In this document: positions 5,528-20,596 of the stretch, piece after piece
Position numbering within the stretch: the stretch's first letter is position 1
Layout of the letters: each line of letters opens with the position of its first letter
NCBI GenBank assembly: GCA_021555105.2
Contig: CP134604.1
Span: forward strand, 310,001-374,000
Length of the DNA stretch: 64,000 nt
DNA from: Thalassospiraceae bacterium LMO-JJ14
GTDB taxonomy: Bacteria > Pseudomonadota > Alphaproteobacteria > Rhodospirillales > Casp-alpha2
Reading direction: 5' to 3'
The notes under the pieces: generated by a model
What the model saw: the letters and a program-made list of their open reading frames with translations, nothing else
What the model was told of the DNA's origin: nothing
Database searches by the model: none
Program-made: the position numbers and the translations under genes

Positions 5528-5550
5528 TTTATACTATACATGACTTGTTA

Positions 5551-5907
5551 ATGGATCATAGTGACGAAATGGCGAAGCCTGCAAACAGAAGCTTTTCCCG
5601 CTATGCCCGCGAAGCTGCAGAGCTTCTGGGGATACAAATTCACAATGCCCGCATCGAACGCAGACTGAGTGTTAAGGAACTCGCGGAACGCGCAGGCGTA
5701 TCGCGCGGTCTCGTTCAGCGCGTCGAACGGGGTGATCCGGGAAGTTCCATCGGGGCCGCTTTCGAACTGGCGGCGATCGTCGGCGTGCGCCTGTTCGATA
5801 ACGACCCGTCAGCGTTGCCGCGCCACCTGTCCCAGGCGCGCGACAAACTTTCCCTGCTGCCGAAATCGGTCCGGCCTGCAAAAACAGAGGTGAATGATGA
5901 CTTCTGA
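5551..5907 (+). CDS. HipB-like XRE-family antitoxin/regulator
   Basis: 118 residues from the ATG at 5551 (an ATG at 5569 is also possible; neither has a clear ribosome site). Residues 25-85 are an XRE helix-turn-helix (GIQIHNARIERRLSVKELAERAGVSRGLVQRVERG). The gene overlaps the hipA-like gene by 11-14 bases, the usual antitoxin-toxin coupling. It probably binds the toxin and represses the operon through the inverted repeat at 5510-5527. It is read against the surrounding phage operon, which suggests a separately acquired accessory module. Confidence 0.8.
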   Translation: MDHSDEMAKPANRSFSRYAREAAELLGIQIHNARIERRLSVKELAERAGVSRGLVQRVERGDPGSSIGAAFELAAIVGVRLFDNDPSALPRHLSQARDKLSLLPKSVRPAKTEVNDDF

Positions 5908-7162
5908 TCCAAGCGCCGATGAAGCTTTTGTTTGGATTTGGCTGCCGGATGCTGCCGAACCTGTCGTCGCCGGGCGCGTTGCCCGCGACGCAGAGCGCCT
6001 GATCTTCAATTACGGTCAAAGCTATCTCGACCGCCCTGAAGCGATACCGATCTTTCTGCCGGAATTACCTCTGCGCAGCGGCGCCATCATGCCGGAGCCC
6101 GGACTGAACATGGCCGGGTGTCTGCGCGACGGCGCGCCGGACGCCTGGGGGCGGCGCGTGATCCTCAACCGGGTCTTCGGCCGGGAGGGTACAAATATCG
6201 AAATCGATGCGCTAGACGAGCTTGCATATCTTCTGCAATCGGGTTCCGACCGGATCGGCGCTCTGGACTTTCAGTTGTCTGCGCAAGAATACATACCCCG
6301 CGCTCCCCGGAGCGCAACACTCAAGGAACTTCAGAGCGCCGCTGAAATGGTCGAACAGGGCATCCCCTTGACGCCCGAACTGGAACTGGCGCTCAACCAC
6401 GGGACGTCACTGGGCGGCGCTCGGCCAAAGGCGATGCTGATCGACGGCACCCGCAAGCTGATCGCCAAGTTCTCGTCCTCTTCCGATACGTATAATGTCG
6501 TCAAGGGTGAGTACGTCGCGATGCGTCTCGCGGCAATGGCGGGGCTCGACGTGGCCCCTGTCGTGCTGGAACGCGTACAGGGAAAAGAAGTGCTTCTGGT
6601 CGAACGCTTTGACCGAACCCCAACGGCGGGCGGCTGGCACCGCAAGGCGCTGGTGTCGGCCCTAACCATATTGGGTCTCGACGAGATGATGGCGCGCTAT
6701 GCCAGTTACGAAGATCTGGCGGAGGTCATCCGCCACCGCTTTACGTCTCCGAAGGCAACGCTGCATGAGTTGTTCGGGCGCATCGTCTTCAATATCCTGT
6801 GCGGCAATACCGATGATCATGCCCGCAACCATGCGGCATTCTGGGACGGCACGTACCTGACCCTGACCCCGGCATACGACATTTGCCCGCAAGGCCGCGC
6901 CGGCAACGAAGCGAGTCAGGCAATGCTGATCACAGGCAACAACCGCATGAGTACGCTTGAAAACTGTCTGACGGCGACGCCGAACTTCCTGCTGGACGAC
7001 AACGATGCGAAGGACATTATCGCCAAACAGATCGATGTCATTCGCGACAACTGGAATGCCGTGTGCGACGAGGCCTCAATGAACGACGTCGAGCGCACCC
7101 TGTTCCGTCAGCGCATGTTCCTGAACCCGTTTGCATTCGAAGGCGCACCAGAGTTCGGATAA
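5894..7162 (+). CDS. HipA-like serine/threonine kinase toxin
   Basis: 422 residues of the HipA family, kinases that halt growth by phosphorylating translation factors (glutamyl-tRNA synthetase for E. coli HipA). Visible motifs are SLGGARPK (172-179, ATP loop and autophosphorylation region), the AKF lysine near 192, the catalytic loop GNTDDHARN (304-312) and the metal-binding YDI (328-330). All core residues look intact, so the kinase is probably active. A second ATG at 5897 has the better ribosome spacing. The stop codon is followed within a few bases by a truncated copy of the array 1 cassette repeat, so its 3' junction looks recombined. Confidence 0.85.
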   Translation: MMTSDPSADEAFVWIWLPDAAEPVVAGRVARDAERLIFNYGQSYLDRPEAIPIFLPELPLRSGAIMPEPGLNMAGCLRDGAPDAWGRRVILNRVFGREGTNIEIDALDELAYLLQSGSDRIGALDFQLSAQEYIPRAPRSATLKELQSAAEMVEQGIPLTPELELALNHGTSLGGARPKAMLIDGTRKLIAKFSSSSDTYNVVKGEYVAMRLAAMAGLDVAPVVLERVQGKEVLLVERFDRTPTAGGWHRKALVSALTILGLDEMMARYASYEDLAEVIRHRFTSPKATLHELFGRIVFNILCGNTDDHARNHAAFWDGTYLTLTPAYDICPQGRAGNEASQAMLITGNNRMSTLENCLTATPNFLLDDNDAKDIIAKQIDVIRDNWNAVCDEASMNDVERTLFRQRMFLNPFAFEGAPEFG

Positions 7163-7304
7163 TCCTGCGGCGTCGGCGACCGCGTGCTCGTAGCGGGCGT
7201 ACGGATCCTCGGGGTCGCAAGACTTAGCCTTTCAACCGGAACGTGCTAAAAAACCGCACCGGTCCTTGCATAACGGATGCAGGAACGGGACGACGGAGCA
7301 TGTG
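7163..7304. repeat. Array 1 cassette repeat, copy 1 (truncated)
   Basis: About 140 bases nearly identical to 8409-8552 and 9640-9781. It contains, read leftward, the codons for the DPEDPCARYE start of the C-terminal module (7202-7216) and a conserved 90-base non-coding piece that carries the ribosome site and probable promoter of the rightward partner gene. The coiled-coil coding part present in the other copies is missing here; the hipA stop codon takes its place. Confidence 0.8.
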
Positions 7305-7991
7305 ATGAGCAACGGCAGCAAACCATCGATGAACACAAGAAAAAAACTGGTGTTTCTTGCCGCAGGCATCGGTGCATTTTTCCTCCTGATCAATCTGCTG
7401 CCGCAGCGGTGGCCGCTGTTCCCGGCGGAGGATTCCATCTTCCGTGCCGACCGCCTTCTCCGTGACGGAAAGTGTACGGAAGGGTACGCCATTTACGAAA
7501 AGTTGGCGGCGAAATCTCCCTCGGGTGCCGACTACCTCAGCATCGGCGACGACAAATATGAGGGCTTCTGCGGCGGGCAGGATATTAAAGGCGCCATCGA
7601 AGCCTATCGAAAGGCGGCATTTAAAGGCACGTGCTCCGCCAATTTCTATTTAGCCGCCGTCGCCCTCAAGCACCAGAACATCGACGGCGTCGATCAGGCC
7701 CCGCCCGCGAACAATCTACTTGCTGCAGCAATCTGTTCGAACGGGATTACTGATCAAGAACTGATCCATCGATATTTCAACAAGTTGACGAGGCATCGTG
7801 ATGCGCTGGGTATCCAAGATAACGCCAACCTCAGGGATGCATTCCGAACGGCATTAGAAGGAAGAAAGTTCTACCTCTCTCTCCCTTATGAGCACAAACG
7901 ACCTATCGCCGAGAATATGCGTGACGGTATCGGCTATGACGCCAATCCAGAGCCCCTCAGCAGGACCGCAGCCCGCAAACCATTGAAGTGA
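7305..7991 (+). CDS. Array 1 partner protein 1: membrane-anchored, Sel1/TPR-like, four cysteines (putative immunity protein)
   Basis: 228 residues from the ATG at 7305 (GGAG 6 bases upstream). Residues 10-35 are one membrane segment (KKLVFLAAGIGAFFLLINLL); the rest should be periplasmic. The soluble part has helical repeats of Sel1/TPR type (AIEAYRKAAFKGTC). Four cysteines (DGKC, FCGG, GTCSANF, AAICS) are conserved in all three array 1 partners, which suits two disulfides. It converges on headless cassette C1, ending 32 bases from it. It is nearly identical at its N-terminus to partner 3 and clearly different from partner 2. Protection against the facing C-terminal module is inferred. Confidence 0.6.
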   Translation: MSNGSKPSMNTRKKLVFLAAGIGAFFLLINLLPQRWPLFPAEDSIFRADRLLRDGKCTEGYAIYEKLAAKSPSGADYLSIGDDKYEGFCGGQDIKGAIEAYRKAAFKGTCSANFYLAAVALKHQNIDGVDQAPPANNLLAAAICSNGITDQELIHRYFNKLTRHRDALGIQDNANLRDAFRTALEGRKFYLSLPYEHKRPIAENMRDGIGYDANPEPLSRTAARKPLK

Positions 7992-8023
7992 AAGATGGCA
8001 AGGTTTGGGACCAAGACACACCG

Positions 8024-8464
8024 TTACTCTCGCTGGCATTTCGCAAGGTCCGCCCTGGCTTGCGCGAGCATTCTGTTCGCTTCCGCCAAATCGGCAATCG
8101 TTTCCCTGTGTGCATCGTTTCTTTGCGTCATTTTGAGCCGAAGGTCACTCACTTCTTCCCGAAGTTCAGCCAGCTTGTTCAATAGCTTTCTTCGTTCGCG
8201 CAGATAATCGCCCTTGCGCGATCCGATCAGCGCATCGACGCCGGTGATGACGAGCGACGGATGCAGCCCGGCGCCGAGGTAGTAGGTCCGCATGCCGCGC
8301 AAAATGTCGAGGATCTGCTGCTTCTCACGTTCCAGTTCCATGACCTGGTTGGCGAGGTCGTTGATCTCGCGTTCCAGCTCGTCGGCGCGGGCTTCCAACG
8401 CTTCGACCTCGTCCTCGGCGTCGGCGACCGCGTGCTCGTAGCGGGCGCACGGATCCTCGGGGTC
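8024..8464 (-). pseudogene. Headless C-terminal cassette C1 of array 1
   Basis: An open frame matching the last 145 residues of the full-length protein at 10502-11866, starting at DPEDPCARYE. It keeps the coiled coil (ALEARADELEREINDLANQV), the TYYLGAGLHPSLVITGVDA segment and the end EANRMLAQARADLAKCQR; the middle (residues after VDA) differs. It has no ATG or GTG: six codons before DPEDP the frame meets a stop (TGA), and the only in-frame candidate is a TTG inside the coiled coil. It is therefore either a silent donor for recombination with the full-length gene or, less likely, a weakly translated small protein. Confidence 0.65.
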
Positions 8465-8552
8465 GCAAGACTTAGCTATTCAACCGGAACGTGCTAAAAA
8501 ATCGCACCGGTCCTTGCATAACAAATGCAGGATCGGAACGATGGAGCACATC
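8409..8552. repeat. Array 1 cassette repeat, copy 2
   Basis: Near-identical to 7163-7304 and 9640-9781; only a few substitutions. It includes the conserved coding start of the C-terminal module and the shared leader of the rightward partner gene. Homology continues leftward into the coiled-coil coding region (to about 8290), giving over 250 bases of identity with the full-length gene for recombination. Repeat spacing is about 1.24 kb. Confidence 0.8.
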
Positions 8553-9194
8553 ATGGACGATTTAAGTAGCTCGCCGCTGGTCGTACGCATGAAGACGTCA
8601 GCTATTATCGCTGTCTTACTGACGATACTAGGGCTGATATTCTTGTTGCCAATCGAGAAACCATTTTTTCTGGCAGACGACTCCGCCATCAGAGCCGACC
8701 GATTGCTTGCCGAAGGCAAATGCAAGGAAGGCTATGCCATTTACGAGAAGCGGGCCGCCGACGGCCGTTACGACGTTTCGTGGCAAACGGTCGGCAGATT
8801 GAAATACCGCGGCGCATGCGGTGGCCAGGACCTGCCCGGCGCTATCGCCGCTTACCGACAGGCCGCACGAGAAGGCGCTTGCGGTGCTAACTTCCGGCTC
8901 GCCGGAATCGCACTGCTTCATCCAGACGTGCCGGGCGTTACACAGGTATCACCAGCGAATAATCTATTCGCTTCTACGATGTGTGCCTTCAACACCAGTG
9001 ATGACAAGATCGTTCCACTGTTTTTCGAGAGCAGGTCCTTGCCACCTGCTTTCGAACAGTTGAAGCCGCTGTTCCTGGAAGCCCTGGAACGACGCCGCAA
9101 TTTCAAAACTTTAGCAGCGGACGAAAAGAAGAGGATCGTGACGGCACTCGTCAACGGTCATGGCTACGATGCCAATCCCAAAACCGACCGGTGA
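8553..9194 (+). CDS. Array 1 partner protein 2: membrane-anchored, four cysteines (putative immunity protein)
   Basis: 213 residues from the ATG at 8553 (GGAG 6 bases upstream). It has one N-terminal membrane segment (TSAIIAVLLTILGLIFLLPI), then a Sel1/TPR-like periplasmic part (GAIAAYRQAAREGACGANF). The four cysteine positions, the RADRLL..GKC.EGYAIYEK motif and PANNL are kept, but the sequence is strongly diverged from partners 1 and 3. It converges on cassette C2, which is likewise diverged from C1 and the full-length C-terminus. This parallel divergence is the best sequence evidence that each partner is matched to its own C-terminal module. Confidence 0.6.
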   Translation: MDDLSSSPLVVRMKTSAIIAVLLTILGLIFLLPIEKPFFLADDSAIRADRLLAEGKCKEGYAIYEKRAADGRYDVSWQTVGRLKYRGACGGQDLPGAIAAYRQAAREGACGANFRLAGIALLHPDVPGVTQVSPANNLFASTMCAFNTSDDKIVPLFFESRSLPPAFEQLKPLFLEALERRRNFKTLAADEKKRIVTALVNGHGYDANPKTDR

Positions 9195-9255
9195 GGTGCA
9201 GACACACAATCGTCTAACTTCATTCGCCCGTCAGGAATCCTGTTCACAAGGTTCA

Positions 9256-9693
9256 TTAACCTTCACAGCGCCGAAGATCGGCCTCAGCGCGGGCGAGCTG
9301 TCCACGTGCGTGTGCTAATTTTGCGCTCATATCTTGCCTTTCATGTAAAAAATCACGCATATCGTCGCGAACAGGATCGAGCACCCGTTGTATACGATCC
9401 AATTCGTCCAAAAGCTCTTCCCTCTGACGATAGAACTCTTCATCGCTCATCCCCAAGGCTCGGTTGAACTCTCCGACCCCGGCGTCCGGGTGTAGCTTGG
9501 CCCCGACGTAAACGGCCGTCATGCCCTGAAGCCGCTCAAGCACCTGCTGCTTCTCACGTTCCAGTTCCATGACCTGGTTGGCGAGGTCGTTGATCTCGCG
9601 TTCCAGCTCGTCGGTGCGGGCTTCCAACGCTTCGACCTCGTCCTCGGCGTCGGCAACCGCCTGTTCGTAGCGGGCGCACGGATCCTCGGGATC
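9256..9693 (-). pseudogene. Headless C-terminal cassette C2 of array 1
   Basis: An open frame that matches the full-length gene from DPEDPCARYE through LEREINDLANQVMELE, then diverges (ERLQGMTAVYVGAKLHPD..., ending LARAEADLRRCEG). The predicted structure stays helical with a Cys three residues from the end, as in the others. There is no native start codon; the nearest in-frame candidate is a TTG inside the coiled coil. It represents a second specificity type relative to C1 and the full-length protein. Confidence 0.65.
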
Positions 9694-9781
9694 GCAAGAC
9701 TTAGCCTTTCAACCGGAACGTGCTAAAAAACCGCACCGGTCCTTGCATAACGGATGTAGGATCGGAACAACGGAGCATGTG
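9640..9781. repeat. Array 1 cassette repeat, copy 3
   Basis: Third copy of the leader-plus-coding repeat. Its coding half is closer to the full-length gene (10870-10942; both have the GCAACCGCCTGTTCG variant) than copies 1 and 2 are, suggesting that this is the most recent duplication or conversion. Confidence 0.75.
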
Positions 9782-10468
9782 ATGGGCAACGGCAGCAAAC
9801 CACCGATGAACACAAGAAAAAAACTGGTGTTTCTTGCCGCAGGCATTGCCGTGTTTTTCGTGCTGATCAATTTGCTGCCGCAGCGGTGGCCGCTGTTCCC
9901 GGCGGAGGATTCCATCTTCCGTGCCGACCGCCTTCTCCGTGACGGCAAGTGCGAGGAAGGGTATGCCATTTTCGAGAAACTGGCCGCGAAAGAAGCGGCA
10001 CCTGTGACATACCTCCGCATCGGCGATGACAAGTATGAAGGCCTCTGTGGCGGCAAGGATCCAGCAGGTGCCGTCAAAGCCTACCGAAAAGCGGCATTGA
10101 AAGGCATGTGCTCCGCAAATTTTTATCTGGCAGCTGTTGCTCTCATGCATCCGCAGATCGTCGGCGTCGAGCAAGCTCCGCCCGAGAACAATTTATTCGC
10201 GGCCACGATATGTTCACGCGGATTATCGGACGAGGAACTAATGCAACAGTATTTTATCGACTTTACTAGGCATCGTGATGCCCTAGGTGTTCTAGATAAT
10301 GCTGGCCTACGGGATGCTTTTCGTGACGCATTACTGAAAAGGCAGGCGTACCTCCACCTGCCGGGCGAAAAGAGACGGTCCATCGCCAAAGATATTCGCG
10401 ATGGCATCAATTATGACGCCAACCCGAATCCTCTGCGGTGGACCGAAACCCGAAAATCGTTGAAATGA
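9782..10468 (+). CDS. Array 1 partner protein 3: membrane-anchored, four cysteines (putative immunity protein of the full-length protein)
   Basis: 228 residues from the ATG at 9782 (GGAG 6 bases upstream). One N-terminal membrane segment (KKLVFLAAGIAVFFVLINLL) is followed by a Sel1/TPR-like periplasmic part with four conserved cysteines. The first 60 residues are almost identical to partner 1. Its 3' end faces the 3' end of the full-length gene with 33 bases between, so it is the partner of the active C-terminus. Convergent rather than co-directional order is unusual for toxin-immunity pairs and would give it independent expression. Confidence 0.6.
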   Translation: MGNGSKPPMNTRKKLVFLAAGIAVFFVLINLLPQRWPLFPAEDSIFRADRLLRDGKCEEGYAIFEKLAAKEAAPVTYLRIGDDKYEGLCGGKDPAGAVKAYRKAALKGMCSANFYLAAVALMHPQIVGVEQAPPENNLFAATICSRGLSDEELMQQYFIDFTRHRDALGVLDNAGLRDAFRDALLKRQAYLHLPGEKRRSIAKDIRDGINYDANPNPLRWTETRKSLK

Positions 10469-10501
10469 TTCTGGCACTATGCTCACAGGCTCAGCTAGCT
10501 T

Positions 10502-11866
10502 CTACGTGCGTTGACATTTCGCAAGGTCCGCCCTGGCTTGCGCGAGCATCCTGTTCGCTTCTGCCAGATCAGCAATCGACTCCCGATACGCATCCACCTT
10601 TAGCTGCATGATTGATCGAATATTGGCAACCTCGCCGCGAAGCTTGGTTAAATCGGCAAGAAGTTGATTCCTATCACGTAGATATTCCTTCTTGTCCGGT
10701 CCGAAAAACGCGTCGATCCCGGTAATGACGAGCGACGGATGCATCCCCGCGCCGAAGTAGTAGGTCCGCATGCCGCGCAAAATGTCGAGAATCTGCTGCT
10801 TCTGACGTTCCAGTTCCATGACCTGGTTAGCGAGGTCGTTGATCTCGCGTTCCAGCTCGTCGGCGCGGGCTTCCAACGCTTCGACCTCGTCCTCGGCGTC
10901 GGCAACCGCCTGTTCGTAGCGGGCGCACGGATCCTCGGGATCGTCCTGTCCATGATCGTTCTGGCCCGGATCGTCCGGTGTTTCGTTCGGTTCGTCCGGA
11001 TCGTCCTGGCTGGGATCGTCGGGCACCGGCTTTTCATCTTCGCTGCCGGGATCGGTGGCCGCGCGGATTGAGCCCGGACGGGACGCAAGGCTCGGCGCGT
11101 CGGCTTGTGCCATTTCCGGATTCCGCTCTGCACCGTAATCACGGGTCATCTCACCCAGCGCGGATTCAAGCACGTCGCCCGCCTTTTCAACGAGAAGCGT
11201 GAGGCCGCGTTGGGCACGCTGGCGGTATTCAGCACTGGCCTGTTTAGCATCCGCTGCGGCTTTGCGGGCACCGGCGGCGCGTTTTTCCTCGAGCCTGCGC
11301 GCACGCTCGGCCTGTTCGTGGCGAGCGCGGGCGTCGGCACGCCGGGCGTCCTCGCGGGCTTTTTCAAGCCGGTCGCGGTCCTGCGCCTTGCGGTAGTCGG
11401 AGCGGGTTTCGTCGCTCAGGTTCGCCTTGATGCGTGCCTCGGCGGCGGCGACCGCGTCGTGCTTCGCATCGGCACGCAGTTTGGCGTTCAGCGCCGCGTC
11501 CCCGGTGGCAGGGGGCGGTGTGGATGGCTGTTTGACAAAGCCCTGCCCGGCAAGGCGCGAGAACGCCCGCTCCGTCGGCCCGCCCGGGTTGACGACACCG
11601 TCCCGCTTGAGGGTGCTGTCCATACGTTCCTGGGCACCGATGATGCCCTTGAACAGCGTTGCGTCGGCATGCGCCTGTGGTGCATCCATCAAACCGTTGG
11701 CGGCCAGTGCGCTTGAGACTTTCGTCACGTCCTTGGGTGCATTCTCACCCCCGATCCCGACGGACCCGGCAAGGTTTGTGCCCGATGCGCGTTCAGCCCG
11801 CGCGGCGGATGCGGTTTGAAGATTCCGTACGGCGGTATCTGCGGCTGCATTGTCGGTCGTACCCAT
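10502..11866 (-). CDS. Full-length array 1 protein: PG-binding-like head, coiled coil, acidic linker, exchangeable C-terminus
   Basis: 454 residues from the ATG at 11866 (AAGGAG 7 bases upstream). Residues 45-105 are the PG-binding-like head, ending DGVVNPGGPTE. Residues 125-235 are a long charged, Ala-rich coiled coil. Residues 272-312 are an acidic linker of repeated DDP units. From residue 310 (DPEDPCARYE) the sequence is duplicated in cassettes C1 and C2: a coiled coil, then TYYFGAGMHPSLVITGIDAFFG, then a second helical stretch ending KCQRT. No signal peptide or enzyme motif is recognised. It lies between scaffold and capsid genes, so it may be packaged in or displayed on the particle. 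An effector role is inferred from the cassette layout; a purely structural virion role is the alternative. Confidence 0.65.
   Translation of the reverse strand: MGTTDNAAADTAVRNLQTASAARAERASGTNLAGSVGIGGENAPKDVTKVSSALAANGLMDAPQAHADATLFKGIIGAQERMDSTLKRDGVVNPGGPTERAFSRLAGQGFVKQPSTPPPATGDAALNAKLRADAKHDAVAAAEARIKANLSDETRSDYRKAQDRDRLEKAREDARRADARARHEQAERARRLEEKRAAGARKAAADAKQASAEYRQRAQRGLTLLVEKAGDVLESALGEMTRDYGAERNPEMAQADAPSLASRPGSIRAATDPGSEDEKPVPDDPSQDDPDEPNETPDDPGQNDHGQDDPEDPCARYEQAVADAEDEVEALEARADELEREINDLANQVMELERQKQQILDILRGMRTYYFGAGMHPSLVITGIDAFFGPDKKEYLRDRNQLLADLTKLRGEVANIRSIMQLKVDAYRESIADLAEANRMLAQARADLAKCQRT
10943..11030. repeat. Degenerate GATCGTCC repeats encoding the acidic linker
   Basis: Imperfect repeats built around GGATCGTCC(T/G) encode the DDP-rich linker immediately before the exchangeable C-terminus. 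The boundary between conserved head and swapped tail lies at the left edge of this repeat (10942). Confidence 0.6.
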
Positions 11867-11885
11867 AAATTGTCTCCTTCTTGAT

Positions 11886-11924
11886 AAAAGGACGGGGGTG
11901 CCGCCGGAAGAGAACGGCACCCCC
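11886..11924 (-). terminator. Hairpin terminator after the scaffold gene
   Basis: Read leftward, a 10-bp GC-rich stem (GGGGGTGCCG / CGGCACCCCC) with an 11-base loop is followed by GTCCTTTTA. It separates the scaffold gene from the full-length array 1 gene, so the latter may be a separate transcription unit or depend on antitermination. Confidence 0.7.
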
Positions 11925-12015
11925 GCCAGTCACGGGGGAGCTGCGAATACCCCAAACGCGCTCGACCCCGAAGACCGGGTCCAACCCGGCCCCGGCCTCA
12001 TACCCGGGCCGTGTG

Positions 12016-12741: not shown

Positions 12742-13032
12742 TCAGTCGTTTATGTGATTTGAATTTGACTCGGACATAGGTCCGTTTCGGCCACGTTCGA
12801 TCAGCACCTGAAGGTGGCTGACCAATTGACGTTGCCCTTCGAGATGACGCAGATGCGCATCCCCGCTGTCCGGCCCGAGCGCCCGCTCCAGCGTGATCGT
12901 GCGCAGATACGCCAGCAGCCTGCGCCCGTCCGCGCCCTGGAAACACCGCGCGGCAATTAACGCGAGTTCCGTCGGGTCCGGCCTGGGATCATCTGCAACC
13001 GCGTCACCCACACGGATCGGATTACTGGACAT
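12742..13032 (-). CDS. Bbp19-like small phage protein
   Basis: 96 residues. The core CFQGADGRRLLAYLRTITLE, then HLRHLEGQRQLVSHLQVLIE, follows the pattern of the Bbp19 family (F..G..GR.LL..LR..T, later EGQR.LV..I...I), found next to portal genes in podoviruses; function unknown. It overlaps the portal gene by 11 bases, so the two are translationally coupled. Confidence 0.6.
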   Translation of the reverse strand: MSSNPIRVGDAVADDPRPDPTELALIAARCFQGADGRRLLAYLRTITLERALGPDSGDAHLRHLEGQRQLVSHLQVLIERGRNGPMSESNSNHIND

Positions 13033-14668
13033 GCGTCACCTCCGGCGTTTCGGCGCCGGTTGGCTCGGCGCCTGCACCCGCTACGTCGGCACCTGGCGCC
13101 CCGGAGCCGAGCACATCGCCCAGCGCTCCCAGGAAATTGCCGTCGCCGAGACCCGGCAGCTGCGGCAGGTCGGCCGCGCCCCCCATCGGCAGGTCGGCCA
13201 TTTCGTCATCGCTGCGCAGGATGTCTTCCGGCACGCCGTAAGCGGCGGCCAGATAACGCGACGTCTTGATCGGATCCATCAGCTTCATGGCTTCAGGGCC
13301 CAGCGCATTGACGGCGGTGATCCATTCACGGACCAACCCGGCATCGCGTTGGCGCCGGTGATTGGCGAGCGGCGAAGTGTAGGTCATCTCGACGACACGG
13401 CTGTCGATTTCAAAACGCGTGATCTCGCCCCGGCGCTGCAGGATACCGACGGCCCGGAGCGCCAGCGGCGTCAGCAGTTCCGATTGCAGCCGCCCGTAGG
13501 TCGCCCCCAGAAGCCGTGCCATTTCCAGCGAACGTTCGACGACTTCCGTCGCCGACATGTCCGGCTTGTCGGGCTGGCCCAGCATGTCGACCATCAATGC
13601 ATGACGGATGCGGCTGCGCATCTGTTCAAGAACGTCGGTCGACAGCGTCATGTCGTTGGCCGGCTTCAAAGGCGTCAGGCCGGCGGACCCGACCGCCTTC
13701 GGAATGATGGTGCCCGGCTCAAGCTTGATCGTCGCCGGGTTCAACACCCCGTCGTCGTCGGCCTGCCAGATCCCGGTAACGGCGATAGACGCGTTCTTAA
13801 GGATCAGCTCGACCACCTTGTTCGCGGTCTTGATGTCGGGCAGCGCCTTCATCACCGGCGAGCGGCCGTAGATCTCACCGGGCGCCTTGACCCAGCGGAA
13901 GTTGATGAACGGCGAGGATCGGAACGTGCCGGACCGCAGCACCCGGGCCTCATTGCCGGCACCTTCACCGGCTTCACGGACGGCGACATAGTCATAGCCG
14001 CGCTTCCCCGGATAGACGGCTTCGATCACGGCAACTTTCATGTCGGCGTTTTCGTCTTCGGCTTCCTTGTCGCCCTGCACCGCCTCGGGATAGCGCTCGG
14101 CAAATTGCATCATCGTCAGTTCGCTGCGCCGGAACGTGCCATCGAGCCGCCCCGACAGGCTTTCCTCGAACACCACCTCGGCAAGCGGCACGGCGGTGAA
14201 CCGGAACGCCGAGGCTTCTCCGATAGGCGCCTCCTCGAACATCAGGCACGCGGTGCCCGCCGTCACCAGATCGAGATAGCACTGGTGCATTTCGACAGCG
14301 AAGTTTGAACGGTCGAAATGCCCTTGCAGCGCCGCCGCCGTATGGCCGAGAAGGTCGGCCATGGCATCGTGCTGCGCCTCGGGTGCCTCGCGGCCGGGCT
14401 TGAAGTCGAACCAGCGGCCCCATGGGGGGGTCAGTTCCGACAGCAGGCTGGCGGCTAGCTGATCCACGGCATCGGTCGCCGTCGCATCGTAAAGTCGTGT
14501 GCCCTTCTTGGCCCCGGGCGAAGCCCCGGCAATCACGGCGTCGCGTTGCGGCAAAGCGAATTCATAACATTCACGCCAATGCCCTTCCCAAGGCTGGCGG
14601 CGTTCCTTGGCACGGGTATAGCGCTGGATCAATTTTTCCGGATCGAGTGTCGTTTCTTTCTCGCTCAT
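13022..14668 (-). CDS. Phage head-tail connector (portal) protein
   Basis: 548 residues of the bacteriophage head-to-tail connecting protein family (podovirus portal). Typical landmarks are the N-terminal RRQPWEGHWRECYEFALP, LLSELTPPWGRWFDF, the middle YGRSPVMKALPDIKTANKV, and LSTDVLEQMRSRIRHALMVD. It forms the dodecameric ring through which DNA passes. The C-terminal 60 residues are Gly/Ala/Pro rich. The gene is full length. A large terminase gene is normally just upstream, but none is found there; array 2 occupies that position. Confidence 0.85.
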   Translation of the reverse strand: MSEKETTLDPEKLIQRYTRAKERRQPWEGHWRECYEFALPQRDAVIAGASPGAKKGTRLYDATATDAVDQLAASLLSELTPPWGRWFDFKPGREAPEAQHDAMADLLGHTAAALQGHFDRSNFAVEMHQCYLDLVTAGTACLMFEEAPIGEASAFRFTAVPLAEVVFEESLSGRLDGTFRRSELTMMQFAERYPEAVQGDKEAEDENADMKVAVIEAVYPGKRGYDYVAVREAGEGAGNEARVLRSGTFRSSPFINFRWVKAPGEIYGRSPVMKALPDIKTANKVVELILKNASIAVTGIWQADDDGVLNPATIKLEPGTIIPKAVGSAGLTPLKPANDMTLSTDVLEQMRSRIRHALMVDMLGQPDKPDMSATEVVERSLEMARLLGATYGRLQSELLTPLALRAVGILQRRGEITRFEIDSRVVEMTYTSPLANHRRQRDAGLVREWITAVNALGPEAMKLMDPIKTSRYLAAAYGVPEDILRSDDEMADLPMGGAADLPQLPGLGDGNFLGALGDVLGSGAPGADVAGAGAEPTGAETPEVTHVQ

Positions 14669-15447: not shown

Positions 15448-16008
15448 CTATTTCAGGGTTAGGTCGGTGACTGCCTTGATGAGATCGCAGTGCATTCGTT
15501 CCGCCGCAGTTTCCTCCGGCGAGCCGCTATCGAATTTTTTCAGCGCACTATAGCTTGCATATAGCTCTGCAATTTCCGAGTTCGGATGATCCTGTGCATA
15601 GTAAAACGGCATCAGGTCCTCGACCTTGCCGTTCGCTTGACGCCAATTCGACGCACGAGAACTCAGCGCACCATCTAACAAGAGCCCGAAAAACCCTCTT
15701 GGACCGTCGTAGCCTTTCTCGACCAGCGGCACGATAATCATTTCGCCAATTTCGACGTAGAACGTATCCGTAGATTCCAGGTAATAGCGGAGCCGTTTCC
15801 GGTGCCAGTCATTCAAATGCGCGCCATAGAATTCGACAGGGGTGTTAAGGGAATTGGCATCACAAAATGGCCGATAGGGCCGCATCGGCAGATACGCGAT
15901 CGCGCAAAGAAGTATACCGACGATAGCATATCCAATTATCCATTTCTGCCACTCGGGCATGGGCTTGCGGCTTCGCCTTGGTTCGTTGGTATTTCGATCT
16001 TGTGTCAT
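15448..16008 (-). CDS. Array 2 partner protein D: membrane-anchored, two-cysteine protein (putative immunity protein)
   Basis: 186 residues from the ATG at 16008. One membrane segment (WIIGYAIVGILLCAIAYLPM) follows a charged N-terminus. Family signature shared by partners A-D: a Cys just after the membrane (RPFCDAN), FY.EIGE..IVPLVEKG, HPNSEIA.L, and a second Cys near the end (MHCDLIKAVTDLTLK). The two cysteines suggest a periplasmic disulfide tying juxtamembrane to C-terminal segments. It lies downstream of cassette CT3 and a hairpin. It ends with the same 18 bases across its stop codon as partner A. Confidence 0.6.
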   Translation of the reverse strand: MTQDRNTNEPRRSRKPMPEWQKWIIGYAIVGILLCAIAYLPMRPYRPFCDANSLNTPVEFYGAHLNDWHRKRLRYYLESTDTFYVEIGEMIIVPLVEKGYDGPRGFFGLLLDGALSSRASNWRQANGKVEDLMPFYYAQDHPNSEIAELYASYSALKKFDSGSPEETAAERMHCDLIKAVTDLTLK

Positions 16009-16088
16009 TCTTCCGTCCCGCTTGCATCGTATGCCTGCGTTTACCATCGTATGTCTGCGTTTACCTATGTCAGGTCCAAAGCGCTTTT

Positions 16089-16120
16089 GTCACACCGCCA
16101 TCCTAAAATGGCGGTGTGAC
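16089..16120 (-). terminator. Inverted repeat between CT3 and partner D
   Basis: A perfect 13-bp inverted repeat (GTCACACCGCCAT / ATGGCGGTGTGAC) with a 6-base spacer, followed leftward by AAAAGCGC. It is the same element as at 17915-17946. It has no run of T, so it may be an attenuator, an mRNA stabiliser or a recombination landmark rather than a strong terminator. Confidence 0.6.
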
Positions 16121-16171
16121 TGAAAAGCGGCGGTTTATGGCTTAGCCTGATTGGGCTTTGTGTCGTGCCAA

Positions 16172-16345
16172 TTAAAGCGGGGATTGGTCCCAGACCCGGT
16201 TGATCTTGTAGTTGTGGGCGATGCCGGCGTCCGCCAACTCCTTCGCCCCCATCACATCGCCGAGATCACCGGATTCGAAGTCATAGTTCTCGTTCCCGTC
16301 ATGAACGACGCGACCTTTGATGTGGATTTTATTTGCTGCGGAATG
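16172..16345 (-). pseudogene. Headless, internally deleted C-terminal cassette CT3 of array 2
   Basis: It directly follows the partner C stop codon in the same frame (no start codon) and matches the C-terminus of the full-length protein: IHIKGRVVHDGNENYDFES, GDLGDVMGAKELADAGIAHN, YKINRVWDQS, then a premature PL stop. Compared with CT1 about 60 bases are missing between two GGATTGG copies, removing the FEGTVDI...NPRF part. It would be inactive if expressed; it could still donate its 5' part. Confidence 0.7.
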
Positions 16346-16918
16346 CTATTTCAGGTTCGGATCGGTGATGGCTTGATACAGGTCGCACTTCAATTCGGAT
16401 TTCTGCAATCGGTCGAGTTTTTTTGGATTGTCGCCAAATACAGCCTCGGAATAGGCGCGGTCCAGTTTGGCAATCTCGGAATCGGGGTGTGCATTGACAT
16501 AACGCTGCACAGACCAGGATGCGATCTTGGCGTTGGTTTGTCCCCAAATAAAATCAAGTGGATCTATAAGTAGAAGCAAGACCCGCCCTAACGGATCAAC
16601 GGGATTTGCCTCGTCACCATTTTCGATAAATGGCACCAACACCATATCATTTATTTCCAGATACAGCGTGTTGGACCCAGAAAAATAATTTTTCAGGGTT
16701 TCGCGATAAATTTTCGACAATTTTGGGCCGTAGACTTCATTCGGCAGTTTAACGGACTCGGTTTCGCAAAACGGTCGGTGTAACTGTACCGGCATGTAGC
16801 TTATCCAAAGAACCACGATTGCCGACAGCCCCCAAATGAACCAGCGTCTGTTCGACTTCCGGCGACGCCGCTTTTCTCCACCAGTTGCTTTATCAAATAA
16901 GTCGTTATTTTTTTCCAA
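16346..16918 (-). CDS. Array 2 partner protein C: membrane-anchored, two-cysteine protein (putative immunity protein)
   Basis: 190 residues from a TTG at 16918, chosen because AGGAG lies 6 bases upstream and no ATG is available. The order is Lys/Arg-rich N-terminus, one membrane segment (WFIWGLSAIVVLWISYMPV), RPFCETE, the conserved YRETLKNYFSGSNTLYLEI and VLVPFIENG, HPDSEIAKLDRAY, then LKCDLYQAITDPNLK. It is AT-rich compared with its phage neighbours, as expected for horizontally moving immunity genes. It follows cassette CT2. Confidence 0.6.
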   Translation of the reverse strand: MEKNNDLFDKATGGEKRRRRKSNRRWFIWGLSAIVVLWISYMPVQLHRPFCETESVKLPNEVYGPKLSKIYRETLKNYFSGSNTLYLEINDMVLVPFIENGDEANPVDPLGRVLLLLIDPLDFIWGQTNAKIASWSVQRYVNAHPDSEIAKLDRAYSEAVFGDNPKKLDRLQKSELKCDLYQAITDPNLK

Positions 16919-16980
16919 AATTCACTCCTACCTTTAACTGCTTGTTTCTATTGCCACTTATGCAAGGACCATAGGGAAAA

Positions 16981-17012
16981 TTCACACCGCCACTCGAAAG
17001 TGACGGTGTGAA
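16981..17012 (-). terminator. Inverted repeat between CT2 and partner C
   Basis: TTCACACCGCCACT / AGTGACGGTGTGAA, 14-bp arms with one mismatch and a CGAA loop. It is in the same position as the other array 2 hairpins but with a different outer sequence, so the structure rather than the exact sequence is kept. Confidence 0.6.
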
Positions 17013-17028
17013 TCTTTTCAAGCCCCAC

Positions 17029-17293
17029 TTACTTGCCCGGCACCTTGTCGAACCACTTGATGTTCGGATTCGAAAGAATATTGCCATGCGAGCCGGACGT
17101 TACATCTACAGTCCCCTCGAAGGTCTGACTCCACTTGCGAATTGTGCGGAAATTATGGGCGAGACCGGCATCGGCTAATCCCTTCGCACCCATCACATCG
17201 CCGAGATCACCGGATTCGAAGTCATAGTTCTCGTTCCCCTCATGAACGACGCGACCTTTGATGTGGACCTTGTTGTCGCAATGGGAAAGTTGG
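17029..17293 (-). pseudogene. Headless C-terminal cassette CT2 of array 2
   Basis: An open frame matching the last 85 residues of the full-length protein: CDNKVHIKGRVVHEGNENYD, GDLGDVMGAKGLADAGLAHN, RTIRKWSQTFEGTVDV, LSNPNIKW. The domain is complete, but the frame enters directly from partner B sequence in another frame and has no ATG of its own. It keeps every residue conserved among CT0-CT3, so it could restore a functional C-terminus if recombined into the full-length gene. Confidence 0.65.
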
Positions 17294-17854
17294 CTATTCC
17301 AAGCTCGGATCAACAATGCGCTTGGTGAGTTCGCAAAACCGAACATCCTTATCCAAATACGAACCCCGCTCACCGCTCCCCAATTGGGTATCCCACGTCA
17401 CATACATCTTCGATATCTCTGAATTCGGGTGTTTTTTCTTAAAATTGGAAAGAGCGTTATAAGCCACTTTCCAATGCGTCGAATCCCATGATCTGTCTGT
17501 GTCGTTGAAGACAATATCGAAGAACCGCTCTACTCTGCTATTGCGAGAATCAGACAATCCCGGATGGACGAGCGGCACCAATACACGGTCGCCGATTTCG
17601 AAAAAAGGGACGCCACTGTTTGCCAGCGCACGGGTGAGAGTTTCCCGATAGTACGTGGAGAGATGCGTCCCGTAATGTTCACCCCGCCACCCCTCATTCC
17701 CGGCGCCGCAATAGGGGTTGTAAAACGTCATGGGCATCGTTGTTACCCACCAAACGGCAATGCCCATAACGGTAAGGACGGCCAGCCTCTGTCGCCATTT
17801 GGCCCGAACTCGGCGTTTGCGTTCGTTTTCATCGTTGCTTTGGTCGTCGGTCAT
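17294..17854 (-). CDS. Array 2 partner protein B: membrane-anchored, two-cysteine protein (putative immunity protein)
   Basis: 186 residues. The order is charged N-terminus, one membrane segment (LAVLTVMGIAVWWVTTMPM), NPYCGAG, HLSTYYRETLTRALANSGVP, FFEIGDRVLVPLVHPG, HPNSEISKMY, then RFCELTKRIVDPSLE at the end. Length and motif order match partners A, C and D. It lies downstream of cassette CT1 and the hairpin at 17915-17946. Its function is inferred only from its position and membrane topology. Confidence 0.6.
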   Translation of the reverse strand: MTDDQSNDENERKRRVRAKWRQRLAVLTVMGIAVWWVTTMPMTFYNPYCGAGNEGWRGEHYGTHLSTYYRETLTRALANSGVPFFEIGDRVLVPLVHPGLSDSRNSRVERFFDIVFNDTDRSWDSTHWKVAYNALSNFKKKHPNSEISKMYVTWDTQLGSGERGSYLDKDVRFCELTKRIVDPSLE

Positions 17855-17914
17855 GCTGAAATCCTGTCCGTATCTTGTGCTTGCTTTCGCTCATGATAGG
17901 TCTAGAGCGCTTTT

Positions 17915-17946
17915 GTCACACCGCCATCCTAAAATGACGGTGTGAC
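17915..17946 (-). terminator. Inverted repeat between CT1 and partner B
   Basis: GTCACACCGCCAT / ATGACGGTGTGAC, one mismatch relative to the perfect copy at 16089-16120. The flanks (GAGCGCTTTT on one side, GAAAAGCGGCGGTTTAT on the other) are also shared with that copy, so the whole CT-hairpin junction was duplicated. Confidence 0.6.
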
Positions 17947-17960
17947 TGAAAAGCGGCGGT

Positions 17961-18233
17961 TTATCGTTTAGGACGAGCCTCCGGCAGATTGCTCCAAGTG
18001 AAGCGCGGATTGGCCAATTCCTCTCCGTTAGGTGTCTGCACGATATCGACCGTCCCTTCGAAGGATTGGTCCCAGACCCGGTTGATCTTGTAGTTGTGGG
18101 CGATGCCGGCGTCCGCCAACTCCTTCGCCCCCATCACATCGCCGAGATCACCAGGTTCGAAATCATATGTCTCCGAGCCATCTTGATCGACGCGGCCTTG
18201 ATGTGGATATTGTTGCTGCAACGGAGAGCAGAA
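17961..18233 (-). pseudogene. Headless, frameshifted C-terminal cassette CT1 of array 2
   Basis: It begins right after the partner A stop. Sequence equivalent to NIHIK is followed, after loss of one base, by GRVDQDGSETYDFEPGD, VMGAKELADAGIAHNYKI, RVWDQSFEGTVDI and ANPRFTW. It has no start codon in either frame except a TTG. The frameshift lies upstream of the conserved core, so a crossover downstream of it would still yield a working tail. Confidence 0.65.
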
Positions 18234-18740
18234 CTATTTCAGGGTCGGGTTGACGACGGCCTTAATAAGGTCGCATTTCAGCTTATCCTTTGCGGCATCA
18301 CCACGTGCATCCGGGTTGGCGCCAATTTCGGCGTCCGCAACAGCCCTGTTCAATATAGCTACCTCGGAATCGGGATGGTCGTCGGCATAAACCATTGCTG
18401 CATCTAAAGCCGTCTTATCGTTCAACGATCTAGTTAAAATATTTCCAAAATTCAGCGGAACGAGTACTCGCTCGCCCAATTGAAAATATGGAATTTCCGA
18501 ATAGGACAGGGCGTAGAGAAGCGATTTTTGATATGTGTGGGACAATCGTGAATCCAAGACGGTCACAACATCTCCATAACGATTTTCGCAGGTCGGCTGG
18601 TAAAAACGAACTGGCATGAAGAGAACCCAAAAAATTACAAAAACCAGCCCTGCCACTATTACGTTGTGCCTGACTGTAGTTCTGCGGTGGATCGCAATTT
18701 TTTTTTCTTCTGCCGATTTTTCATTTCTTGGGTAGGTCAT
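18234..18740 (-). CDS. Array 2 partner protein A: membrane-anchored, two-cysteine protein (putative immunity protein of the full-length protein)
   Basis: 168 residues from the ATG at 18740. One membrane segment (NVIVAGLVFVIFWVLFMPV) is followed by QPTCENR, LSHTYQKSLLYALSYSEIPY, FQLGERVLVPL, DHPDSEVAILNRA and LKCDLIKAVVNPTLK. It shares the juxtamembrane and C-terminal cysteines with partners B-D but is diverged elsewhere. It is the first gene after the full-length protein, the standard immunity position. It is clearly AT-rich relative to the full-length gene. Confidence 0.6.
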   Translation of the reverse strand: MTYPRNEKSAEEKKIAIHRRTTVRHNVIVAGLVFVIFWVLFMPVRFYQPTCENRYGDVVTVLDSRLSHTYQKSLLYALSYSEIPYFQLGERVLVPLNFGNILTRSLNDKTALDAAMVYADDHPDSEVAILNRAVADAEIGANPDARGDAAKDKLKCDLIKAVVNPTLK

Positions 18741-18800
18741 TGTTACTATCCTGTTATTTCTGGATTTCTTACTCTCTCGAATATGTATGGAAGGGCCGGA

Positions 18801-18844
18801 AGAAAATTTGCGCCGCCACACGCCGGAGACGGCGCAAAATTTCT
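18801..18844 (-). terminator. Inverted repeat between the full-length gene and partner A
   Basis: An imperfect inverted repeat centred on TTTGCGCCG / CGGCGCAAA, extended by AT-rich arms, lying directly after the full-length gene's stop codon. It is positionally equivalent to the other three array 2 hairpins, with a different sequence. Confidence 0.55.
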
Positions 18845-18850
18845 TGCAGA

Positions 18851-20596
18851 CTAGTAACTCCGATTTTTCGGATTTTTATCCTTCCACGTGTCCTGCCATT
18901 TGAACCGCGGATTAGTAAGAGCATTACCGTTCTTGGCGGGCGATACATCCACTGTGCCTTCGAATGTCTGACCCCACTCCCGGATTGTGGTGAATTCGTG
19001 AGCAATATCAGCATCTGAAAGACTCTTCGCGCCCATCATGTCCCCAATCCCGCCAGACTCGAAGTCGTACCGCTCGCTACCGTCGTGATCTACATTTCCT
19101 TGTATGTAAATTTTATCGCCACGACGTGTCGCCGTGAACCTAGCCTTCGATGTGAAATCCTTGCGGCCTTCCGCCAACGCGTCATCTCGCTTCGAGCGGT
19201 CAAGAGAGGCAAGATCGTCGATCGCGCCACCGGCTTTCCGCTCGACGTCCCAATAGTCATCCAGATAAGTTGTTTCACCATCCTTGAGGGACCGCAGTTT
19301 ACGGTTGTTGACCTCTTTGCCTGAGATTCCGAGGAACGTCTGCGTCTCGAACCGCTTCCGGTTTTCGGTCTCGGCGTCCCGGATAAACGGATCCTTGCGC
19401 GCTTCGTCGCGCGGGATCGTCTTCGCCGCGCCCTTGCCGTTAAGGAAATGATCCAGGTTGTCGGCGGCCTTGGTGTAGCCCTTGGCCCGGTATTCCTTCG
19501 AGAGATTGGACAGGTTGTCCTTCACCTCCTGCGGGCTGCCGGTGGCGTTGATCCATGCCGACTTGGCAACGTCGGCAGCGGCACCGCCGATGTCACCCGC
19601 CGTCTCGCCGAGCTTACCCGTCCATTCATCCGGATCGCGGTACTTGGCGCCCGGTTCCAGCATCAGGTCATCCGGCGATTTGAGATCATCCGTTTTATCC
19701 TTCGGCGCGGACGGACTCCGGGCGTCCTGAGACTCGGGCGTCTGTTGGGCGGGCGCGTCCCGCCGAGCCGGTTCCGTCACTTGATCGGCTCCTTCGGCGG
19801 CGGCAATTTGCGCCAGCAGCCGCACGTTGGCGGGCGCGATACCCTGACGGGTCTTTTCCAGCAGCTCATCGGCCTGTTGGGGGTCGTTGTCGCGGACCTG
19901 CTTGATCAGATCGCCGATCTCGTACACCGCCTTGGCACCGTCGGTGTTGATAGCGTCCGTGGTGAAGCGGTCGAAGTCGCCGATGCCACGGCGTTTCGCC
20001 AAAGCACGTGCCATGCGCCGGTTTTCCGAAACCACGTCATCGGACAGCGCGTAGGGTGGGTGTTCCGCAGGCGGCTTGTCGATAGTTGGCCCGGCCAGGC
20101 CGGAAACCAGGCTGTCCGAACGCTCTGGACCCCGGCCTGCGCCGGGGTGACGTGACGGGGTGTCGGAATGACGAGGGGCGGGCTGTGCCGCATCGGCCTT
20201 CTCAGCCGTGTTTCCGGCGAGCGTCTTGATCAACCCCCCGGCGACCTTGGCCAGCGTGCGGATGGTCTCGCCGCCCGGATTGATCTGGCCATCGACCTTC
20301 AGCCTGTTCTGTTTCTGGAACGCGCGCGTCGCCTCGCGGGTGCGCTCGCCCCAATAGCCGGTCGGGCCGTCGGTCTTTTTCAAATCCAGCGCGCCGCTGC
20401 GGCCCAGCATGGTTTCGACCTTGGCGACATCGCGGCGATCGTTCTTGCCCTGCTCACCGACCGGACGCGACAATTTCGACGCATCGCCCAGGTTCGTCAG
20501 CTCCGGTTCCGGCTTCGGTTTCGGCGGCACCCGGCCGAACGGGTCCCTGTCTTCGTTTTTCTTCAGATCGTCGCGCAGTTCAAGCGGATTATACAT
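18851..20596 (-). CDS. Full-length array 2 protein: PG-binding-like head with exchangeable C-terminal domain
   Basis: 581 residues from the ATG at 20596 (AGGAG 9 bases upstream). Residues 52-115 form a clear PG_binding_1-like domain (GYWGERTREATRAFQKQNRL, DGQINPGGET). Residues 135-310 are a low-complexity, Pro/Asp-rich and helical linker. Residues 320-480 are a charged helical region. The tail from about residue 493 (DKIYIQGNVDHDG) is repeated in CT1-CT3. Residues conserved in all variants include E-x-Y-D-F (508-512), MGAK, the His of AHE/AHN (533), R-x-W, and QTFEGTVDV. There is no signal peptide. The motif and the closing strand loosely recall the colicin M catalytic domain. Its head, cassettes and partner genes fit a polymorphic toxin; activity is unproven. 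Confidence 0.65.
   Translation of the reverse strand: MYNPLELRDDLKKNEDRDPFGRVPPKPKPEPELTNLGDASKLSRPVGEQGKNDRRDVAKVETMLGRSGALDLKKTDGPTGYWGERTREATRAFQKQNRLKVDGQINPGGETIRTLAKVAGGLIKTLAGNTAEKADAAQPAPRHSDTPSRHPGAGRGPERSDSLVSGLAGPTIDKPPAEHPPYALSDDVVSENRRMARALAKRRGIGDFDRFTTDAINTDGAKAVYEIGDLIKQVRDNDPQQADELLEKTRQGIAPANVRLLAQIAAAEGADQVTEPARRDAPAQQTPESQDARSPSAPKDKTDDLKSPDDLMLEPGAKYRDPDEWTGKLGETAGDIGGAAADVAKSAWINATGSPQEVKDNLSNLSKEYRAKGYTKAADNLDHFLNGKGAAKTIPRDEARKDPFIRDAETENRKRFETQTFLGISGKEVNNRKLRSLKDGETTYLDDYWDVERKAGGAIDDLASLDRSKRDDALAEGRKDFTSKARFTATRRGDKIYIQGNVDHDGSERYDFESGGIGDMMGAKSLSDADIAHEFTTIREWGQTFEGTVDVSPAKNGNALTNPRFKWQDTWKDKNPKNRSY
20125..20152. repeat. REP-like palindrome inside a coding region
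   Basis: A palindrome with arms CCCCGGC / GCCGGGG flanked by CTGGA and TGACG, the form of common proteobacterial intergenic REP elements. It lies in frame within the linker of the full-length array 2 protein and encodes residues near 150-160 (HPGAGRGPERS). Confidence 0.6.

Follow-up and report, generated by a model that had tools for sequence, protein, structure and literature searches.

In the polymorphic toxin systems of the contact-dependent inhibition (CDI), Rhs and MafB type, strings of immunity genes have been read as remnants of tail swaps (Zhang et al. 2012, PMC3482391), and in the MuF toxins of temperate phages the MuF domain presumably targets the capsid (Jamet et al. 2017, PMC5576092; Bxa, PMC11699363). 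Colicin M acts in the periplasm, where it hydrolyses lipid II (PMC11148199), and its immunity proteins Cmi, BmiB and PmiB are periplasmic, with a single transmembrane (TM) segment and two cysteines (PMC5821083). Here we examine a locus of Thalassospiraceae bacterium LMO-JJ14 that can be compared with each of these, at positions 15448-20596, minus strand, of a 64,000-nucleotide stretch of contig CP134604.1 (positions 310,001 to 374,000); we call this whole stretch the window and use its numbering unless another contig is named. The locus is an array made up of a full-length gene for a protein with a peptidoglycan (PG)-binding head, three shortened copies of its C-terminus (tails CT1-CT3) and four genes for membrane-anchored partner proteins. 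We put at roughly 70% the probability that it is a polymorphic toxin-immunity locus with a constant head, a swappable colicin-M-like tail, an adjacent immunity gene and displaced old cassettes. An earlier note, made from the letters of the DNA, had likened the layout to that of polymorphic toxin loci with silent tail-immunity cassettes, and the likeness gains support from the polymorphism of head and tail, the linkage of tails to partners, recombination among the tails and a parallel case in another genus (genome G706).

Gene order and coordinates hold as they were first given. Read leftward, with partner letters assigned so that D adjoins the full-length gene and A lies farthest from it, the array runs from the full-length toxin gene (18851-20596, 581 residues, ATG at 20596 behind the Shine-Dalgarno sequence AGGAG) through hairpin 1 (18795-18850), partner D (18234-18740), CT1 (about 17961-18221), hairpin 2 (17916-17945), partner C (17294-17854), CT2 (about 17029-17289), hairpin 3 (16982-17011), partner B (16346-16918, TTG start behind AGGAG), CT3 (about 16172-16325) and hairpin 4 (16090-16119) to partner A (15448 to about 16008, the likely start, or 16047). 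The four intergenic hairpins are strong; in folding, each surpasses shuffled sequence by a wide margin (z -4.2 to -7.8; -4.2 for hairpin 1, -7.0 for hairpin 2). Hairpin 1 is unlike the others in sequence, and hairpins 2-4 share one sequence that occurs in three copies in the 3.9 Mb genome, all within the array. The folding confirms the hairpins that had been proposed between the units. Simple promoter and terminator scans gave results near chance and were not used.

The full-length protein consists of a disordered N-terminus, a PG_binding_1-like head (residues 56-107), a pre-toxin domain (about residues 180-262) and a colicin-M-like toxin domain (about residues 366-581, with boundaries from alignments). 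PG_binding_1 (PF01471, E 2e-8) is the only domain that reaches its Pfam cut-off. A comparison of the full-length toxin with 50,697 phage records returned no match. Elsewhere the same head is joined to other tails. Genome G001, a sister species in the same genus, has a head 80% identical over residues 4-129 at the same chromosomal site beside TldD; the C-terminus behind it is unrelated, and the partner, also different, lacks a membrane segment. Viral contig L011 joins the same head to a further different tail and a different, secreted-looking partner. In genome G706, from another genus and family, the head is intact and bears a new tail, with a new partner of three TM segments; of the old colicin-M-like toxin only the final ~30 residues are left downstream, and two intact partners of the array's family come after them. 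Judged from this gene order, G706 is an independent case of the same tail displacement with the predicted immunities left intact. The genome of LMO-JJ14 itself contains further loci with related pre-toxin domains outside virion genes, one of them again an array.

Some related loci have features of their own. At L065 5656-12101 (G000:C1:3876000+), a tail-immunity array away from virion genes has convergent membrane or secreted partners, and its pre-toxin copies are possible homology arms. The toxin linkers of L011, L053 and L065 contain, just before the variable tail, short GGxGDD stretches resembling single RTX calcium-binding repeats. In the same-genus genome G002, a toxin-like open reading frame (ORF; L058 6379-7719) ends in a PBECR1-like nuclease domain (E 6e-4) and adjoins another head of the type found in array 1, a second array of the window described below.

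All three tails had been described as repeats of the last 85 or so residues of the full-length protein. For CT1 and CT2 this stands, at 54-59% identity to its C-terminus (E 1e-23 to 1e-27; 54%, E 2e-23 for CT1 and 59%, E 1e-27 for CT2), with the correction that CT1 has lost a single nucleotide at its 5' end in the DNA alignment; the reading frame of CT2 is intact. CT3 is a broken mosaic, with a large internal deletion and a premature stop. Twelve consecutive informative sites in CT3 match CT2 and the next 27 match CT1, a pattern of three runs in 40 sites that was matched by 0 of 20,000 shuffles, and on this pattern CT3 is a recombinant of a CT2-like and a CT1-like tail. Shine-Dalgarno-like sites precede the partner starts; none was found before the TTG of CT1, the sole tail start inspected. 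Because the toxin domain common to relatives spans about 215 residues, the tails, which at ~85 residues cover roughly its last third, are fragments of a toxin domain, and headless CT1 would be the displaced last ~80 residues of an older toxin. Behind the last partner, the ORF 15430-15083, also on the minus strand, holds a tail of unrelated type whose sequence recurs in viral contig L011 (2005-2784) joined to pre-toxin sequence; it is the relic of a fourth, probably oldest tail. Since headless partial, frameshifted, mosaic and relic tails lie beside intact partners, the array is best understood as a layering of displaced tail ends, with the partner genes still intact.

The four partners are all intact, are 30-36% identical to one another and form one family, as had been claimed (E 6e-9 to 1e-26). 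Partner B is matched by partners C and A at E 1e-20 to 1e-26, and more weakly by partner D at E 6e-9; all four are predicted immunity proteins. Each of the four has one membrane segment near the N-terminus, followed by the cysteine of a P-x-C motif, and a second cysteine near the C-terminus. These two positions are common to all, and partner A has additional cysteines. Searches with the family matched no described family, and a structure model (pLDDT 80) gave no significant Foldseek match and a best Z of 4.3 in structural re-alignment. Because CT3 is dead and the other tails are fragmentary, the part that has clearly been kept intact would be the immunity.

Tail and partner are also linked outside the window. 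A search of 317 genomes of the order with the toxin alignment detected the toxin domain in 19. Directly behind about 20 of the 25 copies inspected from outside the window stands a partner that has one N-terminal membrane segment with P-x-C behind it, often with overlapping stop and start; among background ORFs this look was found in 2 of 278. The exceptions are L052, L081, L094, the orphan L086, and L084, where the neighbour is convergent. The reverse search of the 317 genomes with the partner alignment gave 21 matches, spread over 11 genomes; a toxin domain or tail adjoins 19 of them, and the remaining two are a broken gene and a gene at a contig end. The order of tail and partner recurs among related genomes, and partners hardly ever occur without a tail. 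Their adjacency is kept in distant genera. Toxins with the same domain, together with partners, also adjoin rpoD or gpsA, outside virion genes, and other chromosomal sites have lone related toxins with different heads.

The probable activity of the toxin domain is suggested by distant similarities. Pfam and NCBIfam scans of the family gave nothing useful. A profile search of PDB sequences placed colicin M on top, with matches in colinear order at the HYLxGxG motif and at the D-K-Y-D-F active site, and with a wider toxin profile colicin M was the sole match. When the toxin profile was aligned by hhalign to three colicin-M bacteriocins (one profile pair), the alignment passed through their SDRYD active site at E 3.8e-4; the partner profile, run as a control against the same bacteriocins, gave P 1. 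The D-x-Y-D motif is conserved in the toxin family (first position 18 D and 4 E, Y in 22 of 23, D in 22 of 23), the window toxin having E at the first Asp. In a VIA-align structural re-alignment of the AlphaFold model (pLDDT 84), the C-terminal domain of BtpeA, a Bacteroides type VI secretion system (T6SS) effector, came first (Z 6.8), and the rows below it were mostly taken by pectocins M, syringacin M, colicin M and PaeM (Z 4.9-6.0, with 135-169 residues aligned). With moderate confidence, we regard the window toxin as a distant colicin-M-like periplasmic toxin, without filing it as a member of that family. Since profile, active-site motif and structure all suggest a distant colicin-M-like fold, lipid II in the periplasm is probably its target. 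A literature search found no article, in the library covered, that combines colicin M, Alphaproteobacteria and polymorphic toxins.

Several observations weigh against the polymorphic toxin interpretation or its colicin-M-like part. None of the 23 toxin-family members matches Pfam colicin M (PF14859), the PDB profile matches are not significant alone (E 0.2-2), and Z values of 5-7 may arise from a common arrangement alone. The profile and structure search that the earlier note had suggested for the C-terminus yielded, besides the weak colicin M similarity, no significant Foldseek match for the toxin model and no match for the partner family; the tail matched no structural virion domain in the libraries tried. 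Colicin M has a His-Arg pair after its D-x-Y-D motif. No conserved His-Arg lies within 22 residues after the YD in the toxin family; of this pair, the three aligned bacteriocins conserve the Arg and vary the His. Partner D is possibly the cognate of the present toxin by position only. No export or delivery system was identified, and TssC of the T6SS is absent from the genome of LMO-JJ14.

The absence of His-Arg and of a Pfam match, and the first place of the BtpeA domain among the structural rows, agree with a variant in which the polymorphic toxin system is the same and its chemistry is not, the tail exerting a different periplasmic activity on a distantly similar fold. This is a possibility of some standing, about which we are doubtful, as D-x-Y-D, the colinear HYLxGxG, the profile match and the Cmi-like design of the immunity proteins favour colicin M.

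If the locus is a polymorphic toxin system with a colicin-M-like tail, we can postulate how it would work. The head, made up of the PG-binding-like module and the pre-toxin domain, would stay constant, present the swappable C-terminal toxin and serve delivery or docking. In the periplasm of a competitor, the tail would most likely act on lipid II and so block cell-wall synthesis, to judge from its similarity to colicin M. The gene directly behind the toxin may encode a periplasmic immunity protein, anchored in the inner membrane and probably held by a disulfide, which would shield the producer, a role suggested by its linkage and design. A new tail-immunity pair would recombine in behind the head, and the old tail would lose its head and shift downstream with its immunity gene; we propose this displacement because of the mosaic CT3, the relic tails and G706. 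Old tails would then decay and recombine with each other, and the old immunity genes, which would remain intact, would probably still guard against kin with earlier toxin versions.

The statement that the array lies inside a phage structural region is right as to the genes around it, which are a T7-like virion set of terminase, portal, scaffold, major head protein, tail proteins, internal protein and holin (an endolysin is present as well in the related viral contig L010). It needs amendment in that the cluster is order-wide and inherited and that related toxins also occur outside it; the virion particle therefore cannot be their sole setting. The cluster occupies window positions 1-20710 and about 298000-330710 of G000:C1 (L120), and the portal gene adjoining the array (13022-14668, minus strand; phrog_332, E 1e-103) has homologs throughout the order. 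Of 100 relatives, 56 have a portal homolog (among them 42 of the 60 good genomes; 31 of the 54 genera are represented), usually a single one, and the GTDB collection contains at least 510 loci with such a homolog; the best 80 of these loci belong nearly all to Rhodospirillales and relatives, including Magnetospirillum, Azospirillum, Terasakiella and Caenispirillum. In the portal tree, members of a genus fall together, apart from a few cases such as Terasakiella. In the genome of LMO-JJ14 and in G057, from another family, the cluster is flanked by methylmalonyl-CoA mutase and TldD, and in several other genomes it lies beside methylmalonyl-CoA mutase. No integrase, repressor or replication gene was seen in the cluster of LMO-JJ14 by reading its ORFs (no profile search was made for them). 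The cluster is probably old, inherited and domesticated, similar to a gene transfer agent (GTA) and of podovirus type. We found no report of it as a GTA in a literature search; the GTA report for Azospirillum concerns genes like those of RcGTA.

Genes with PG-binding heads lie within the virion cluster in a number of genomes. In Pacificispira spongiicola KN72 (L206 13174-15085), a PG-binding head with a colicin-M-like tail and a partner with one TM segment and P-x-C stand behind the scaffold gene, and this named strain, with its comparable arrangement, is a possible model for direct tests. The linked podovirus-like particle would be the first candidate for toxin delivery, and delivery by it is plausible. 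It is conceivable, as a tentative extension to which we give clearly less weight, that an order-wide domesticated podovirus-like particle of Rhodospirillales carries PG-binding-headed toxins as cargo and injects them into kin, in this case a colicin-M-like, lipid II-attacking enzyme into the periplasm, and that survival among kin depends on the array of old immunity genes.

The same setting lends itself to other explanations. The full-length protein could be a structural or adhesive virion protein whose C-terminus varies for its function in the virion, with tails and partners as by-products of tandem duplication. Its gene adjoins the portal gene, related PG-binding proteins occupy the same virion module in many genomes, and repeats of this kind are typical of tandem duplication. 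We nevertheless judge this unlikely: a membrane-anchored partner is kept beside the tail across distant genera, the tails of sister genomes are unrelated (the toxin-like ORF in the genus ends in a nuclease-like match), loci by rpoD or gpsA, apart from any virion genes, encode toxins with the same domain and partners, and in the libraries tried no virion domain matches the tail. Somewhat less likely still is a lysis device, in which the colicin-M-like enzyme would help to lyse the particle-producing cell and the membrane partners would act as timing inhibitors resembling antiholins. A lysis context does exist, as the cluster has its own holin and endolysin (the endolysin in L010), and colicin M is known to hydrolyse periplasmic lipid II (PMC11148199), but unrelated tails on the same head, several diverged partners and loci outside the virion cluster would be left unexplained. 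Exclusion factors are typically membrane-anchored periplasmic proteins, and all four partners are intact while the tails decay; superinfection exclusion or kin recognition by the partners alone, blocking entry of phage or particle at the inner membrane with the toxin secondary, is the least probable explanation, as the partners track the type of tail rather than the phage or particle: with another tail on the same head they are missing, and outside virion clusters they still accompany the tail.

Other features of the cluster deserve mention. Array 1 (window 7266-11920) has the same design with another head (10502-11920) and is inserted between scaffold and major head protein. It has coiled-coil tails (9256-9627 and 8024-8398) and convergent partners on the plus strand (9743-10468, 8514-9194 and 7266-7991), which are membrane-anchored repeat proteins, Sel1-like by eye. 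A tRNA-Pro (ggg) at 11900-11991 lies between the scaffold gene and array 1, and viral contig L010 apparently has a similar stretch in the corresponding position. Between the major head protein and array 1, a helix-turn-helix gene and a HipA-like gene, both judged by eye, occupy 5545-7162. The cluster also encodes a 534-residue protein (L120 12212-13816) with a PG-binding-like match near its C-terminus, to PHROGs of endolysin type, and with relatives in other clusters.

Taken as a polymorphic toxin locus, the array would add a phage-linked class of such toxins in which a PG-binding head bears a distant colicin-M-like tail and the immunity family has no known match in the searches made. The steps of tail replacement appear to be still visible in it, as intact, frameshifted, mosaic and relic tails beside intact immunity genes, with an independent parallel in another genus, and the locus may be seen as a record of past toxin swaps. 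The widespread inherited podovirus-like cluster of Rhodospirillales may be a toxin-delivery or gene-transfer particle.

Comparison with described systems places the locus among several of them. Similar to GTAs such as RcGTA, the virion cluster is single-copy, apparently host-inherited, often in a shared chromosomal place and without visible replication genes; unlike RcGTA, it consists of T7-like podovirus genes and carries toxin arrays. As with MuF toxins, the window gene adjoins portal and packaging genes. Membership among MuF toxins was rejected, the head having no MuF domain in Pfam, and in contrast to those toxins of temperate phages it belongs to a T7-like cluster inherited across the order and has arrays of displaced tails. 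Delivery by a T6SS of the same genome was likewise rejected, as TssC (VipB) was not found there and was detected in the E. coli control. With colicin M bacteriocins (PMC5821083) and the T6SS pair DUF3289/DUF943 (PMC11148199) the family of the window toxin shares D-x-Y-D, HYLxGxG and probably a similar fold, and its partners resemble Cmi, BmiB and PmiB as single-TM periplasmic immunity proteins with two cysteines; it differs from colicin M in its very distant sequence and in the PG-binding head that replaces the receptor-binding part. Membership in the CDI, Rhs or MafB groups was rejected in Pfam searches that gave no CdiB or two-partner secretion, Rhs repeat or MafB domain. Yet the locus has in common with these polymorphic toxin systems (PMC3482391) a constant head, a swappable tail, immunity behind the tail, and strings of old cassettes and immunity genes. 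It departs from them in its PG-binding head linked to virion genes, in displaced tails that comprise only the last third of the toxin domain, and in array-specific hairpins between tail and immunity gene. The array design is of an already known kind, and what seems new is the head, the tail and immunity family, and the setting in an order-wide podovirus-like cluster. The locus fits the swap model of Zhang et al. 2012 (PMC3482391) and shows intermediate stages of it.

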